In this document: piece after piece, positions 4,009-53,031 of the stretch
How positions within the stretch are numbered: the first letter of the stretch is position 1
Layout of the letters: each line of letters starts with the position of its first letter
Source: Burkholderiaceae bacterium
GTDB taxonomy: Bacteria; Pseudomonadota; Gammaproteobacteria; Burkholderiales; Burkholderiaceae_D
Reading direction: 5' to 3'
NCBI GenBank assembly: GCA_019745005.1
Contig: JAIETO010000169.1
Location: forward strand, 1-64,000
DNA length: 64,000 bases
Made by a program: the position numbers and the translations under genes
Notes under the pieces: model-generated
What the model saw: only the letters and a program-made list of their open reading frames with translations
The model's database searches: none
Told to the model about the DNA's origin: nothing

Positions 4009-4222
4009 GGCTATGTTCAGATTGAATGTTGATAAAAGTAAAGGTTCGTATTACGAAGAAAAAACAAACCATTCAACACAGAGACACAGAGGCTCAGAGG
4101 AAAAACAATGAGAAAGAGCAGCGGCATTTTGCTTTTCTCAGTGTCTCTGTGTCTCTGTGTTGAGAGGTTTTGATCTTTTTCATTACTATTTAATTTCATC
4201 AACACGCAATCTGAACATAGCG
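4009..4222. mobile_element. Family-4 non-autonomous element, copy A (214 bp, 8-bp duplication)
   Basis: Inverted ends GGCTATGTTCAGATTGAATGTTGAT / ATCAACACGCAATCTGAACATAGCG; flanks TTAGAACA (4001-4008) and TTAAAACA (4223-4230); internal ACACAGAGACACAGAG palindrome. Confidence 0.8.
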
Positions 4223-4365: not shown

Positions 4366-5679
4366 TTAACGCCCCTCGTCCAACACTTTCAAGGTTTCCT
4401 CGAAGCTGAAAACTTTTCGAATCTCGACCACATCAAACTTTCCGACCACGTTGGGTGGAAACGCTGCATAAGGTGCATTGACTCGAATGATTCGCCGCAC
4501 CGCTTCATCTAAATCAGCACGTCCACTTGAACGCACGATGGTAATGTCGTCAATGCTGCCATCGCTGCGAATTCCGACTACGACCACAGGGTCACCGCGT
4601 GCCTTGTCTTTTGCCGTCTGCGAATAATTCAGGTTGCCGTTGCGCTCAATTTTGTTACGCCAAGCGTCGACATACAGTTTTAAAGGGACATCTTGATCCG
4701 CGCTGCCAAGAAAAACACGGCGGCGCGAACGGTCCTCAAACTCTGGCCGACGCGGCAGTGGCGGCACGCCGCGCAAAAGATCAAGACCCTTCGCTTGTTC
4801 ACGCGCTCGGCTGACTAAATCGCCACCGAGCAAGCTCTTGGGTAACACGATGTTCGCCGCAGGTGTATCGCCTGCCCCTGCACCAGTGCCGGCCGCTCCT
4901 GACGAGGGCGTCGGTGTGGCCGCGCGCGCTGCCAAAGCGGCAGCATCACGCGCACGCTGTTCAGCGAGTCTTTGTTCTGCTAGTTTTTGTTCTGCTAGTT
5001 TTTGCTCTGCTAGTTTTTGCTCTGCTAGTTTTTGCTCTGCTAGTTTTTGTTCTGCTAGTTTTTGTTCTGCTAGTTTTTGTTCTGCTAGTTTTTGCTCAGC
5101 TAACTTTTGCTCAAATAACTTTTGCTCCGCTAACTTTTGCTCCGCTAATTTTTGCTCCGCTAATTTTTGCTCCGCTAATTTTTGCTCTGCTAGTTTTTGC
5201 TCCGCTAGTTTTTGCTCAGCTAACTTTTGCTCTGCTTGTTTTTGGCGTTCTAATGCTTGCTGCTTTTGCTTTGCCGCCAATTCCTCTACAAGCTTGGCTT
5301 GTTCAAGTAATAGTTGACGCGAACGCGCAGCTTGCTCTTCGACTTTCTTACGCTGTTCAATTTCCGCAATACGCTGTTGTTCTGCACGCTGTTCTACTAG
5401 TTGCTGTTCTGCTTGTCGTTGTCGCTCCTGTCGCTTTCGTTCTTCCGCCAGTTGTTGCAAGTGCTCTTGCTCTTTTTTTCTCGCTTCTTCAAGCGCAAGC
5501 TGCTGTTGCGCTTGTTGTTGCGCTTGTTGTTGCGCTATTTGCAGCGCTTGCTGTTGAGCGAGCTGTCTTTCCCGTTCTTGCTGTTCTTGCTGGCGTTTCT
5601 TTTCTTGTTCCCGCTCCTGCTCACGTTCCCGCGCTAAGGCAAGTGCTTTCGCTTGCCGATTGTTCTCTTCGATTTGCAA
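4366..5679 (-). CDS. TonB/TolA-like energy transducer, C-terminal part (frame displaced from the N-terminal ORF)
   Basis: TonB C-terminal-like region (VVVVGIRSDGSIDDITIVRSSGRADLDEAVRRIIRV...) after a Q/E/K/A-rich region; continues the 5634..6521 ORF in the -1 frame. Confidence 0.7.
   Translation of the reverse strand: MQIEENNRQAKALALAREREQEREQEKKRQQEQQERERQLAQQQALQIAQQQAQQQAQQQLALEEARKKEQEHLQQLAEERKRQERQRQAEQQLVEQRAEQQRIAEIEQRKKVEEQAARSRQLLLEQAKLVEELAAKQKQQALERQKQAEQKLAEQKLAEQKLAEQKLAEQKLAEQKLAEQKLAEQKLFEQKLAEQKLAEQKLAEQKLAEQKLAEQKLAEQKLAEQKLAEQKLAEQRLAEQRARDAAALAARAATPTPSSGAAGTGAGAGDTPAANIVLPKSLLGGDLVSRAREQAKGLDLLRGVPPLPRRPEFEDRSRRRVFLGSADQDVPLKLYVDAWRNKIERNGNLNYSQTAKDKARGDPVVVVGIRSDGSIDDITIVRSSGRADLDEAVRRIIRVNAPYAAFPPNVVGKFDVVEIRKVFSFEETLKVLDEGR
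4966..5238 (-). repeat. 15-bp coding tandem repeat encoding (A/F)EQ(K/R)L, about 18 units
   Basis: Reiterated ctgctagtttttg(c/t)t units with synonymous variants; protein AEQKLAEQKL... Confidence 0.9.
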
Positions 5680-11146: not shown

Positions 11147-11259
11147 CTTCTCAAACAAAGGCCGAGTGCATTAGACAAGCGCGAAACATCATTTCTAACG
11201 CACCAATTACTGCATGGATTACGCTACAAAAATGATGTTTTTCTCGATCCGCAAACTAA

Positions 11260-11359
11260 TTCCATTTCCAAATCAATTGTGTCTAGGAGACGAGCCGCAG
11301 ACAGTGCTGTAGCACGGCAAGGCGAAGGAAACAACGACACGATTGATTTAGAAATGAAA
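11260..11359 (+). mobile_element. Correia-like 100-bp element (family 1), copy 1
   Basis: 24-bp inverted ends TTCCATTTCCAAATCAATTGTGTC / GACACGATTGATTTAGAAATGAAA; flanks TAA 11257-11259 and TAA 11360-11362. Confidence 0.85.
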
Positions 11360-11386
11360 TAACTCGCGATGTCATTGTTGCTTAGC

Positions 11387-13027: not shown

Positions 13028-13081
13028 GTTTCTCTCCTCGTATTTTTATCGGGTGATGGTTTTTTCGGCGTGCGCAATTTA

Positions 13082-13181
13082 TTCCATTCCTAAATCAATC
13101 GTGTCGTTGTTGCCTTCACCTTGCCGTGCTACAGCACTGTCTGCGGCTCGTCGCCTAGACACAATTGATTTGGAAAAGGAA
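13082..13181 (-). mobile_element. Correia-like 100-bp element (family 1), copy 3, inverted relative to copy 1
   Basis: Reverse complement about 95% identical to the other copies; flanks TTA 13079-13081 and TTA 13182-13184. Confidence 0.85.
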
Positions 13182-13709
13182 TTACTGAAAATTTGCAGAC
13201 GAACGTGGCAAGCGCTTTACGTTTGGCAGCGCATTGTCGAGTAACCAATTTCTAAATCGTATTGTGCTGTGGCTGGCAAAACGCTGCTCAGTTCTGCGCG
13301 AAAGTACGTGCAACAAACCTGTCTCGCTAATGCCCTTTAATTTATAGCCCGGTATGACTCCACATTCGCCGCCCAGCAAACGAAGTTCTCGCTCACCCAG
13401 TTCCGGCTCGATCACGCGTTTGAGATCATTAATCGGCACCCAAATCGTCTCATCAACCAGAAAAAAACGAAGATGTACACCGTCAAAGGTGTAGTACCGC
13501 CCCTGCCATCGATGAAAAACCGACCAGCTTGCCCAATACTTGATCTTGGGGCCGATCTCATAGAGGTCATTTGCGAATAAAACGCCCCACACCACGGCGC
13601 TAAAGCACAAACCCAATGGGCCGTGATTCGGACTTACCATGGTTCCGACATTCCACGCGACGTACGTAAACCCTAGACTAAAAAAGAGCTTTGCAAAGAA
13701 GATGAGCAT
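13182..13709 (-). CDS. Hypothetical membrane protein
   Basis: ORF to 13856, but MLIFFAKLFFSLGF at 13709 is a more plausible start since the longer version overlaps the neighbouring GTPase gene. Confidence 0.6.
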   Translation of the reverse strand: MLIFFAKLFFSLGFTYVAWNVGTMVSPNHGPLGLCFSAVVWGVLFANDLYEIGPKIKYWASWSVFHRWQGRYYTFDGVHLRFFLVDETIWVPINDLKRVIEPELGERELRLLGGECGVIPGYKLKGISETGLLHVLSRRTEQRFASHSTIRFRNWLLDNALPNVKRLPRSSANFQ

Positions 13710-32806: not shown

Positions 32807-32847
32807 GCAGCTCTCCTGTGACCTTTTTGTGTCGATGTCGATTCTTA

Positions 32848-32947
32848 TTCCATTTCCAAATCAATTGTGTCTAGGCGACGAGCCGCAGACAGTGCTGTAG
32901 CACGGCAAGGCGAAGGCAACAACGACACGATAGCTTTAGAAATGGAA
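32848..32947 (+). mobile_element. Correia-like 100-bp element (family 1), copy 2
   Basis: TTCCATTTCCAAATCAATTGTGTC ... GAAATGGAA; flanks TTA 32845-32847 and TTA 32948-32950. Confidence 0.87.
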
Positions 32948-32978
32948 TTACGTGAAAATACAGCGATGCAGCAAAACC

Positions 32979-44175: not shown

Positions 44176-44486
44176 CGAAAACTCCGATTAAGTATAGCGA
44201 GCGGCCAAAGTTTAACCCAGATATTCCATTAGGATTTGCGACGATGGTGGATGCACTTTTCGAGCCGGTTTCGTTGCGAATGAGGCACCAATAGCCAGCT
44301 ATTGGCAACGAAGAGCAGCGAAAATGACCGAAAATGCGCCACCAGCTCGCAAATAGCGCCGTAAGCGCGCCTAATGGAAAATCTGGGTTTGAATCGAGAT
44401 GCGCACCTGTACGATTGTGCAGTGGGCGCGGTAGCCGGCGTCGCAGATACAAAATTTGGTCGCGCCGTGACTTAATCAGAGCTTCC
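44176..44486. mobile_element. Family-2 IS5-like MITE interrupted by a family-3 element
   Basis: Ends CGAAAACTCCGATTAAGT / ACTTAATCAGAGCTTCC; flanks TTAA 44172-44175 and 44487-44490; body homologous to 52794..52914. Confidence 0.78.
44214..44389. mobile_element. Family-3 non-autonomous element, copy 2 (176 bp), nested in the MITE
   Basis: AACCCAGATATTCCATTAGG / CCTAATGGAAAATCTGGGTT (1 mismatch over 20 bp). Confidence 0.85.
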
Positions 44487-45662
44487 TTAATTCATCACGT
44501 TCAACTCCTCCGTCCGTCTTGGAGGGTAGGTCTCCCAGCGACTACATCCGGGACATTGCCAGTAAAACTGCCGCGCTTTGAAACCGCAATGAGAACATTG
44601 GTAGCGCGCTAGTTTTTGCGCGTACCCATGCACAAGATTTTTTACCACCGAGAGTTCTGGTCGAATCTCAGGCGGTGCGGCTAATAAACGCGCGTCTAAT
44701 AATTTATCTAAACCGAGTAAGGTTGGCGTACGTCGAAGCTCGGCGATCACTAACTGGTTTGCGGCTTCAACCGAATCAAGCTCAACGGTGGCTTTAAACA
44801 CCACCTCAAGTAAATCGATCGAGGGCGCTTCGGCGAGATAACCTTTTAGCAGATTAAGCCCTTCTTGCGGACGCTCAAGCTTGCGGTACGCATCCATCAA
44901 ACGTTGTGCCACCAAAGAAACGTGCGGCACGCTTTGTTGCTCGACTCGGCGCCATGCAAATATGGCTTTATCAATATCACCTTTTGACAGATGCACGTCG
45001 CCACTTAGTATCGCTGCCCGCACATTATGTCGATCGGTCGCGTCTGCTTTTTCCAACAAAGAAAGGGCGGCTTCGGGGTGTGTGTGCACTAATTCATCCT
45101 GCGCTAACTCGCAGTAAAACTGTGCAATTTCTTTTTGCCTGCCGCCGGCGCCAGACTCTTGCAAGGCATTAGCTGCGTCAATCGCGCGGCTCCACTCCTT
45201 TTCACGCTGATAAATTTCGAGTAAGGCACGACGCGCTTGCATGGCGTAAGGCGAAGCAACGAGCTGATTAAACGTTTCTTCAGCACGATCTAACAGGCCA
45301 GCTTTAAGATAATCTTGGCCTAATTCGAACATTGCTTGGGTTTGCTGCTCACTTGGCAAATCCGGTCTTGAGAGCAAATTTTGATGCACCCGAATTGCGC
45401 GCTCTGTTTCACCGCGACGACGAAACAAATTACCTAAAGCGAAATACAGTTCTACGGCCTCAGGATCAAGCCGCACGATGTCAATAAATGCGTCAATCGC
45501 TTTATCGTGTTGATCATTCAGTAAAAAATTAAGACCTTTGAAATAGCCGTTAGGTAAGCTTCTGGATTCAGATAAAAGCTGACGTATATCCACTCGCGCG
45601 GCTATCCAGCCAAGTGAAAAAAACAGTGGAATACTGAGTAACCACCAAATTTCGAATTCCAT
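44487..45662 (-). CDS. lapB: Lipopolysaccharide assembly protein LapB
   Basis: N-terminal TM, TPRs, C-terminal rubredoxin-like YQCSHCGFKARQFYWQCPGCSRWETYPP. Confidence 0.93.
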   Translation of the reverse strand: MEFEIWWLLSIPLFFSLGWIAARVDIRQLLSESRSLPNGYFKGLNFLLNDQHDKAIDAFIDIVRLDPEAVELYFALGNLFRRRGETERAIRVHQNLLSRPDLPSEQQTQAMFELGQDYLKAGLLDRAEETFNQLVASPYAMQARRALLEIYQREKEWSRAIDAANALQESGAGGRQKEIAQFYCELAQDELVHTHPEAALSLLEKADATDRHNVRAAILSGDVHLSKGDIDKAIFAWRRVEQQSVPHVSLVAQRLMDAYRKLERPQEGLNLLKGYLAEAPSIDLLEVVFKATVELDSVEAANQLVIAELRRTPTLLGLDKLLDARLLAAPPEIRPELSVVKNLVHGYAQKLARYQCSHCGFKARQFYWQCPGCSRWETYPPRRTEELNVMN

Positions 45663-52793: not shown

Positions 52794-52914
52794 GGAAGCT
52801 CTGATTAAGTGTAGCGAGCGGTCAAAGTTTGAATCGAGAAGCGCACCTGTACGACTGTACAGCGAGCATCGCAGGTTCAAAATTTGGTCGCGCAGTAACT
52901 TAATCTGAGCTTCC
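52794..52914. mobile_element. Family-2 IS5-like MITE, uninterrupted copy (121 bp)
   Basis: GGAAGCTCTGATTAAGT / ACTTAATCTGAGCTTCC (1 mismatch over 17); flanks TTAG 52790-52793 and 52915-52918. Confidence 0.88.
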
Positions 52915-53031
52915 TTAGTTAGTTAGCGCGCCAGCTTATCATCGTGGGATTGCCACGGGTTTGGGGCTAACAGTTTGAATCGGTGCGCAACTTTACCGCG
53001 CCCGAACAGTGAAACAACCACTACTACATTT

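Follow-up and report, generated by a model that had tools for sequence, protein, structure and literature searches.

The Correia elements (CREE or NEMIS), which affect promoters and the processing of mRNA in gonococci and meningococci, have been studied for more than 35 years as something peculiar to Neisseria. CREEs have been called unique to Neisseria (PMC5039591); their inverted repeats are taken here as printed in PMC9778887. NEMIS transcripts are reported to be substrates of RNase III in a review (PMC2229807), and the passages of the CREE reviews that were searched mention no relatives outside Neisseria. Our search of the open-access literature, by sequence and by topic, likewise found no report of the Correia core outside that genus, which is weak evidence of absence. 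Other comparable systems are the bacterial MITEs, which are short, lack a transposase gene, carry terminal repeats, duplicate their target and are probably mobilised in trans, and the small palindromic repeats such as ERIC, RUP and REP/REPIN, which are likewise small, intergenic and capable of forming hairpins.

How does the repeat family described here compare with these systems? The window, that is, the whole 64,000-nucleotide stretch of Burkholderiaceae DNA that was analysed, contains three copies of exactly 100 bp. Element 1 lies at 11260..11359, with its core on the + strand, between TAA duplications at 11257-11259 and 11360-11362. Element 2 (13082..13181, core on the − strand) lies between TTA duplications at 13079-13081 and 13182-13184, and element 3 (32848..32947, core on the + strand) between TTA duplications at 32845-32847 and 32948-32950. 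The first-pass annotation had these coordinates and duplications right; the identity that it put at about 95% also holds, elements 1 and 2 each being 95% identical to element 3. The 24-bp inverted ends that it described are present in all three copies, albeit imperfectly, with mismatches. In element 3 the left terminal repeat, or outer arm, is TTCCATTTCCAAATCAATTGTGTC (32848..32871, + strand), of which the last 5 nt are the 5′ strand of the inner helix P1. Its counterpart on the right is GACACGATAGCTTTAGAAATGGAA (32924..32947, + strand), of which the first 5 nt are the 3′ strand of P1.

The draft assembly comprises 3.84 Mb in 321 contigs; its gene content is that of the Burkholderiales, and its genus is probably Undibacterium. 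When it was searched by BLASTN with the third copy, a check that the first-pass annotation had proposed, 40 matches were returned, none weaker than E=2e-24. These copies are 84-100% identical to the query. An exact 3-bp duplication borders 22 of the 38 copies with flanks (TTA 12, TAA 6, TCA 3, TGA 1, hence TNA), and most of the remainder are one duplication letter off or have one damaged end. None of the 38 interrupts a long open reading frame; eight overlap short frames only (82-105 aa), and essentially all are intergenic. Shorter derivatives (45-66 bp) have lost internal sequence, which in the 65-bp forms was deleted between GGCGA direct repeats.

Did the element arrive by insertion? Element 3 lies between pilB and a deacetylase gene. 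This gap measures about 75 bp in the window genome after subtraction of the element and one duplication, and 53-120 bp in five sister genomes that lack the element; in a sixth the gap, of 332 bp, is unrelated. The empty sites anticipated in sister strains were thus found at the level of the gap. The exact junctions could not be aligned, because the intergenic DNA of these sister species has diverged. From the TNA duplications and the element-free gap in five relatives we conclude that this is a mobile element, inserted in this lineage. With its terminal inverted repeats, its target duplication, its 100 bp and its lack of a transposase gene, the family has the features of a MITE. The window repeats are therefore confirmed as a real family of tiny non-coding transposons, related to Correia elements by their core, and not CREEs by their ends.

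The window holds other repeats. A tandem array of a 15-bp unit, in about 18 register copies, occupies 4911-5306, and an imperfect inverted repeat of 49 nt, with a 29-nt spacer and rich in ACAGAGACACAGAG, lies at 4055-4181. Diverged duplicated stretches, 85-90% identical, pair 1078-1287 with 44204-44389 and 44387-44492 with 52827-52920. In genome G1051, TCATTCCATTTC occurs near base 128 from the ends of contigs C53, C123, C125 and C153, probably inside another collapsed repeat.

What then connects this family with Neisseria? Plasmid records totalling 7.3 Gb were searched blindly by blastn with the 100-mer; the two best matches were Correia cores of N. gonorrhoeae, both records being chromosomes misfiled as plasmids. 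The match covers query positions 26-73 (48 nt, 87.8% identical, E=1e-5) and recurs at 12-13 places per chromosome. The neisserial locus is a full CREE, with TATAGTGGATTAAATTTAAATC ends flanking GGCGGCGAGCCGCAGACAGTACAGATAGTACGGCAAGGCGAGGCAAC. A single covariance model matches both elements, so that the resemblance noticed in the first-pass annotation is real; the Correia core that it quoted is also letter-for-letter correct, being present in genomic copies of CREE type (L079, for example). These results support the conclusion that the central 50 or so letters of the window repeat are the same structured core as that of the gonococcal Correia element. Both share the core sequence and the fold GGCGACGA(A)GCCGCAGACAGT..ACGGCAAGGCGA(A)GGCAAC, and they are alike in their size near 105 bp, terminal repeats, intergenic location and high copy number.

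Outside the core the two part company. The window ends are TTCCATTTCCAAATC, where a CREE has the 26-bp Correia inverted repeat starting TATAGTGGATTAA, a difference that the first-pass annotation had also pointed out. The target duplication is a 3-bp TNA as against TA. The apical stem is GTGC/GCAC with a 4-nt loop, and the 50-bp IHF insert was not seen. The host belongs to the Burkholderiales, and the core itself is not confined to Neisseria. The description ‘Correia-like’ therefore stands for the core and fails for the element, whose ends and duplication are not those of a CREE. An informal comparison with ERIC, RUP and REP/REPIN recognised no core in common.

The core of element 3, which is also the span of our covariance models, extends over 32867..32928 (+ strand); the models place that of element 1 at 11279..11340 (+) and that of element 2 at 13101..13162 (−). 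Across families the order is P1 (the inner arms), L1, P2 (8 bp), L2 and P3. In element 3, on the + strand, the conserved internal loop L1 has TAGGC (32872..32876) on its 5′ side and AACAAC (32918-32923) on its 3′ side; across families it is TAGGC, AAGGC or CAGGC opposite AACRAC or AACGCM. Helix P2 pairs GACGAGCC (32877..32884) with GGCGAAGGC (32909-32917). Internal loop L2, also conserved, sets GCAGACA (32885..32891) opposite GGCAA (32904-32908). The apical hairpin P3 (32892..32903) reads GTGC-TGTA-GCAC; it is GTAC...GTAC in Neisseria and most other families, and throughout it consists of a GTAC or GTGC stem with a loop of 4-5 nt.

In other genomes P2 varies freely, with compensation (GCTCAGTC/GACTGAGC, GCTTTAGC/GCTAAAGC, GCCGCATC/GATGCGGC), and the loops are fixed across families. 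Some of the loop changes that do occur are coupled, as with GAAGACA opposite GGCGA at three loci (L086, L094, L096). Among 37 distinct sequences the core pairs scored 0.479 for covariation, whereas shuffled partners scored 0.144 and slid partners no more than 0.092; both sides have changed in 12 of the 17 pairs, and 89.3% of cells pair. Some P2 pairs were different in the model that produced the alignment, so that fitting can have favoured the evidence for P2 only weakly. The change from GTAC to GTGC/GCAC with pairing kept, proposed on first inspection, is borne out by the covariation test (A-U 29, G-C 8 at that pair). That inspection thus had the GTGC/GTAC stem right and overlooked the wider P1/P2/P3 fold with its two conserved internal loops, as well as the bias towards one strand described below. 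Rfam 15 gave no match in the window at the gathering cut-off, and none at the core positions of relatives even at lax E-values. By eye the core has some resemblance to attC sites, REP/RAYT, group II intron domain 5 and known ribozymes, none of it convincing.

If the core folds, does it do so on one strand or on both? At the DNA level, every G.T mismatch in one strand of an inverted repeat corresponds to A.C in the complementary strand. In the absence of one-strand selection, the two should therefore be equally frequent. An alignment of the 22-nt arms that flank the modelled core, with G.T and A.C given equal scores, yielded 183 G.T against 53 A.C mismatches on the core strand. When 120 elements were grouped into 52 arm clusters, which is less than a full phylogenetic correction, 38 clusters had a G.T majority, 3 an A.C majority and 11 were tied (sign test p=1e-8). 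The bias is robust to cluster thresholds of 0.55-0.8 and to arm lengths of 15 and 22 nt; it is weaker at 30 nt, a length at which many arms had already ended. It is present separately in the pattern-retrieved set and in the class and phylum set. Predicted stability of the core plus arms favours the core strand in 43 clusters and the opposite strand in 13. The core alone has no extra predicted stability on the core strand (23 clusters versus 33), and the strand bias hence rests on the arms. Folding of one single strand, as RNA or as single-stranded DNA, appears to be under selection. Because copies are short-lived and lineages long-lived, we infer that this selection acts on the spreading lineage.

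How widely is the core distributed? A covariance model, R1, was built from six of the genome's own cores, one CREE, a Cupriavidus core and the second family of the window genome. At E<=1e-4 it matched 101 of 400 Burkholderiales genomes, in 53 of 158 genera. A second model, R2, built from 38 diverse matches, detected the core at E<=1e-5 in 34 of 387 class-wide and 21 of 299 phylum-wide genomes, other classes included. The suggestion that, across Betaproteobacteria, different termini carry one shared core is thereby upheld, yet proves too narrow: the core extends to other Gammaproteobacteria and to other classes of the phylum. Copies detected by the core model number 72 on the N. gonorrhoeae chromosome, 56 in Chitinimonas prasina, 53 in Glaciimonas soli, 47 in Polaromonas sp. 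P2-4, 27 each in Undibacterium pigrum (a genome encountered with another core family than the window's) and Comamonas composti, and 26 in Acidovorax radicis. Lower counts were obtained for the C. metallidurans megaplasmid (15), Ralstonia sp. ASV6 (9), Vogesella fluminis (7), Methylotenera mobilis and Pseudomonas pseudonitroreducens (5 each), Cupriavidus pampae (4) and Methylophilus aquaticus (3). Core diversity is far greater outside Neisseria than within it. A repeat regarded as exclusively neisserial thus seems to belong to a class that is widespread.

The survey brought up several individual cases. Core elements of Methylotenera mobilis (L185) and Methylophilus aquaticus (L198) have in common the right flank ACCAGGTGACTGCGCC(T/C)TCTTCGGC, and this shared sequence suggests an old orthologous insertion. 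Gammaproteobacterial versions (L110:1440-1720, L108:1340-1600, L107, L116) are Y-shaped palindromes of about 260 bp, with terminal repeats of about 35 bp and two core-bearing arms in opposite orientation. In one gammaproteobacterial family three genera have a core hairpin in the pstB-phoU interval (loci L102, L131, L132, L134 and L135 of genomes G570, G1045, G1013, G825 and G829, at about 1501-1562 of each), its core strand antisense to the operon. The flanking genes were read in L102 and L135, and the other three loci share the flank sequence. P2 covaries among these hairpins and the loops are nearly invariant; this is possibly a fixed, domesticated copy. Phage records gave no match; in IMG/VR six viral contigs (L372-L377) carry the core, one of them as a CREE with neisserial ends (L375) and another with TATAGTCGGAG ends (L372).

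The core is carried by at least six terminus types. Type A (TTCCATTTCCAAATC, TNA duplication) is that of the window family and recurs in Acidovorax, Polaromonas and Rhodoferax. Types B (GGACTTACGCAAAA, TA duplication), C (TTCCGGTTTGGATTAGAAA) and D (GAGGCTGTTGCAAAA) occur in the window's genus, which thus has at least four, and the window genome itself has both A and B. Types E (GAGCCGCTAACAAAACC) and F (TACGGATTTGCATTC) are common outside that genus. On the C. metallidurans megaplasmid, GAGGCGCTATCAAAATGA ends of a third element flank the same core. In sister genome G1049 the family-B elements are 178-275 bp long (L290-L294, L297) and have extra hairpin modules beside the core, one of which is duplicated in L294; these modules had no Rfam match.

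Where do the ends come from? Type B has a partner in a 1142-bp insertion sequence (IS) of the IS701 family in sister genome G1065 (L400:1339-2480), with 14-bp ends GGACTTACGCAAAA, a TA duplication and a 345-aa transposase (NF049921, E=1.6e-123). Type E has a partner in an 865-bp IS of the IS5 family on E. ictaluri pEI1 and X. citri plasmid pF (L464, L465), which has GAGCCGCTAACAAAAC ends and the TAA duplication of the family-E MITEs and encodes a transposase. Each IS matches its MITEs in ends and duplication, and neither is the partner of the window family. Neither contains the core, which is therefore not a remnant of these two partners. We conclude that the core has become joined to ends that belong to two or more unrelated transposase families. 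It is here that these elements are unlike MITEs in general: their structured core is independent of the IS partner and common to MITEs with unrelated termini. An IS with the window family's own ends was not found in its own genome, in nine sister genomes or at DDE_Tnp_1 loci. All but a few of the TNATTCCATTTC sites in the own genome lie within short copies, and when plasmids were searched with family A and family F ends, only chance matches appeared.

We think it likely that these elements are three-part MITEs, with IS-dependent ends, pairing arms and a shared folded core homologous to that of Correia. A DDE transposase provided in trans would recognise the terminal repeats, of about 10-18 bp; it would vary between families, and the terminal sequence and the duplication would vary with it. 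The variable arms would pair with one another, and the core of about 50 nt at their tip would fold on one strand as P1-P2-P3 with its two conserved internal loops. The core would be a module common to many MITE families, with an origin outside the IS from which the ends are taken. A common factor would read the folded core, which may help the carrier element to spread or make its insertions tolerable. We give roughly even chances to the broader proposition that the core is an independent module, folding as a single strand, which has passed across Proteobacteria among MITEs whose transposases belong to unrelated families (IS701, IS5, Correia type and others). Selection would then favour the core because some host or element factor, itself widely shared, reads the fold and thereby helps the carrier to spread or to be tolerated.

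Might the window family instead be a true Correia element, acquired horizontally from Neisseria, whose ends have since drifted? The 87.8% identity of the cores over 48 nt and the P2 type GACGA(A)GCC/GGCGA(A)GGC, common to the window genome and Neisseria, would agree with this. It is nevertheless highly improbable, given the TTCCATTTCC ends with TNA as against TATAGTGGATTAA with TA, the recurrence of window-type ends with the core in Acidovorax, Polaromonas and Rhodoferax, and the greater diversity of cores outside Neisseria. We regard as equally remote the idea that an ancestral IS left the core behind as inert DNA, retained solely on account of the youth of its copies. MITEs do usually arise as internal deletions of ISs, and the copies in the own genome are 84-100% identical to the query; but both matched ISs lack an internal core, the stem changes are compensated and the loops fixed across families and classes, and a one-strand G.T bias is unexpected for inert DNA. 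Nor is the core apt to be a double-stranded site, bound for instance by IHF or another bending protein, that aids synapsis of the ends. DNA of 100 bp is stiff, and long CREEs carry an IHF site. Such a site would conserve sequence and not pairing, whereas P2 varies freely with compensation, and it predicts no difference between G.T and A.C; we consider it improbable.

If the folded form is single-stranded, is it RNA or DNA? We lean slightly towards RNA, with the core strand acting as a processed or protein-bound hairpin after the manner of the NEMIS transcripts and RNase III. RNA is favoured because those transcripts are reported RNase III substrates and the partner transposases are DDE enzymes, which act on duplex DNA. 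Against it stands the orientation of the insertions relative to genes. An antisense bias was apparent at 12:25 and 6:11, was gone in the third set (16:16) and was dropped; without a robust bias nothing ties the fold to mRNAs. The antisense core strand between pstB and phoU also counts against RNA. Convergent gene pairs outnumber divergent pairs around insertions in every set (15:10, 7:5, 20:4), as expected from insertions that avoid promoters. Single-stranded DNA, formed in replication, transformation or a strand-specific step of transposition, would fit the unbiased orientation and the pstB-phoU case. It would fit, too, a bias that is a property of long-lived element lineages and so points to mobility over single-copy mRNA context; DNA hairpins also tolerate G.T better than A.C. 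To our knowledge, though, there is no folded single-strand substrate for the DDE-type IS701 and IS5 transposases, and the report on NEMIS transcripts again speaks for RNA. We hold single-stranded DNA to be possible and somewhat unlikely.

What is new here is a core that is shared, structured and selected on one strand; the repeat as a whole is a MITE related to Correia by its core only. If the Correia core exemplifies a module found throughout the phylum, harmless hosts with dozens of copies become available for work on its function, and a comparison of families with different ends could reveal what the core does. The strand bias makes the claim directly testable, namely that something reads the fold in single-stranded form. 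MITEs of this kind would then be seen less as the leftovers of insertion sequences than as carriers of a common structured part.
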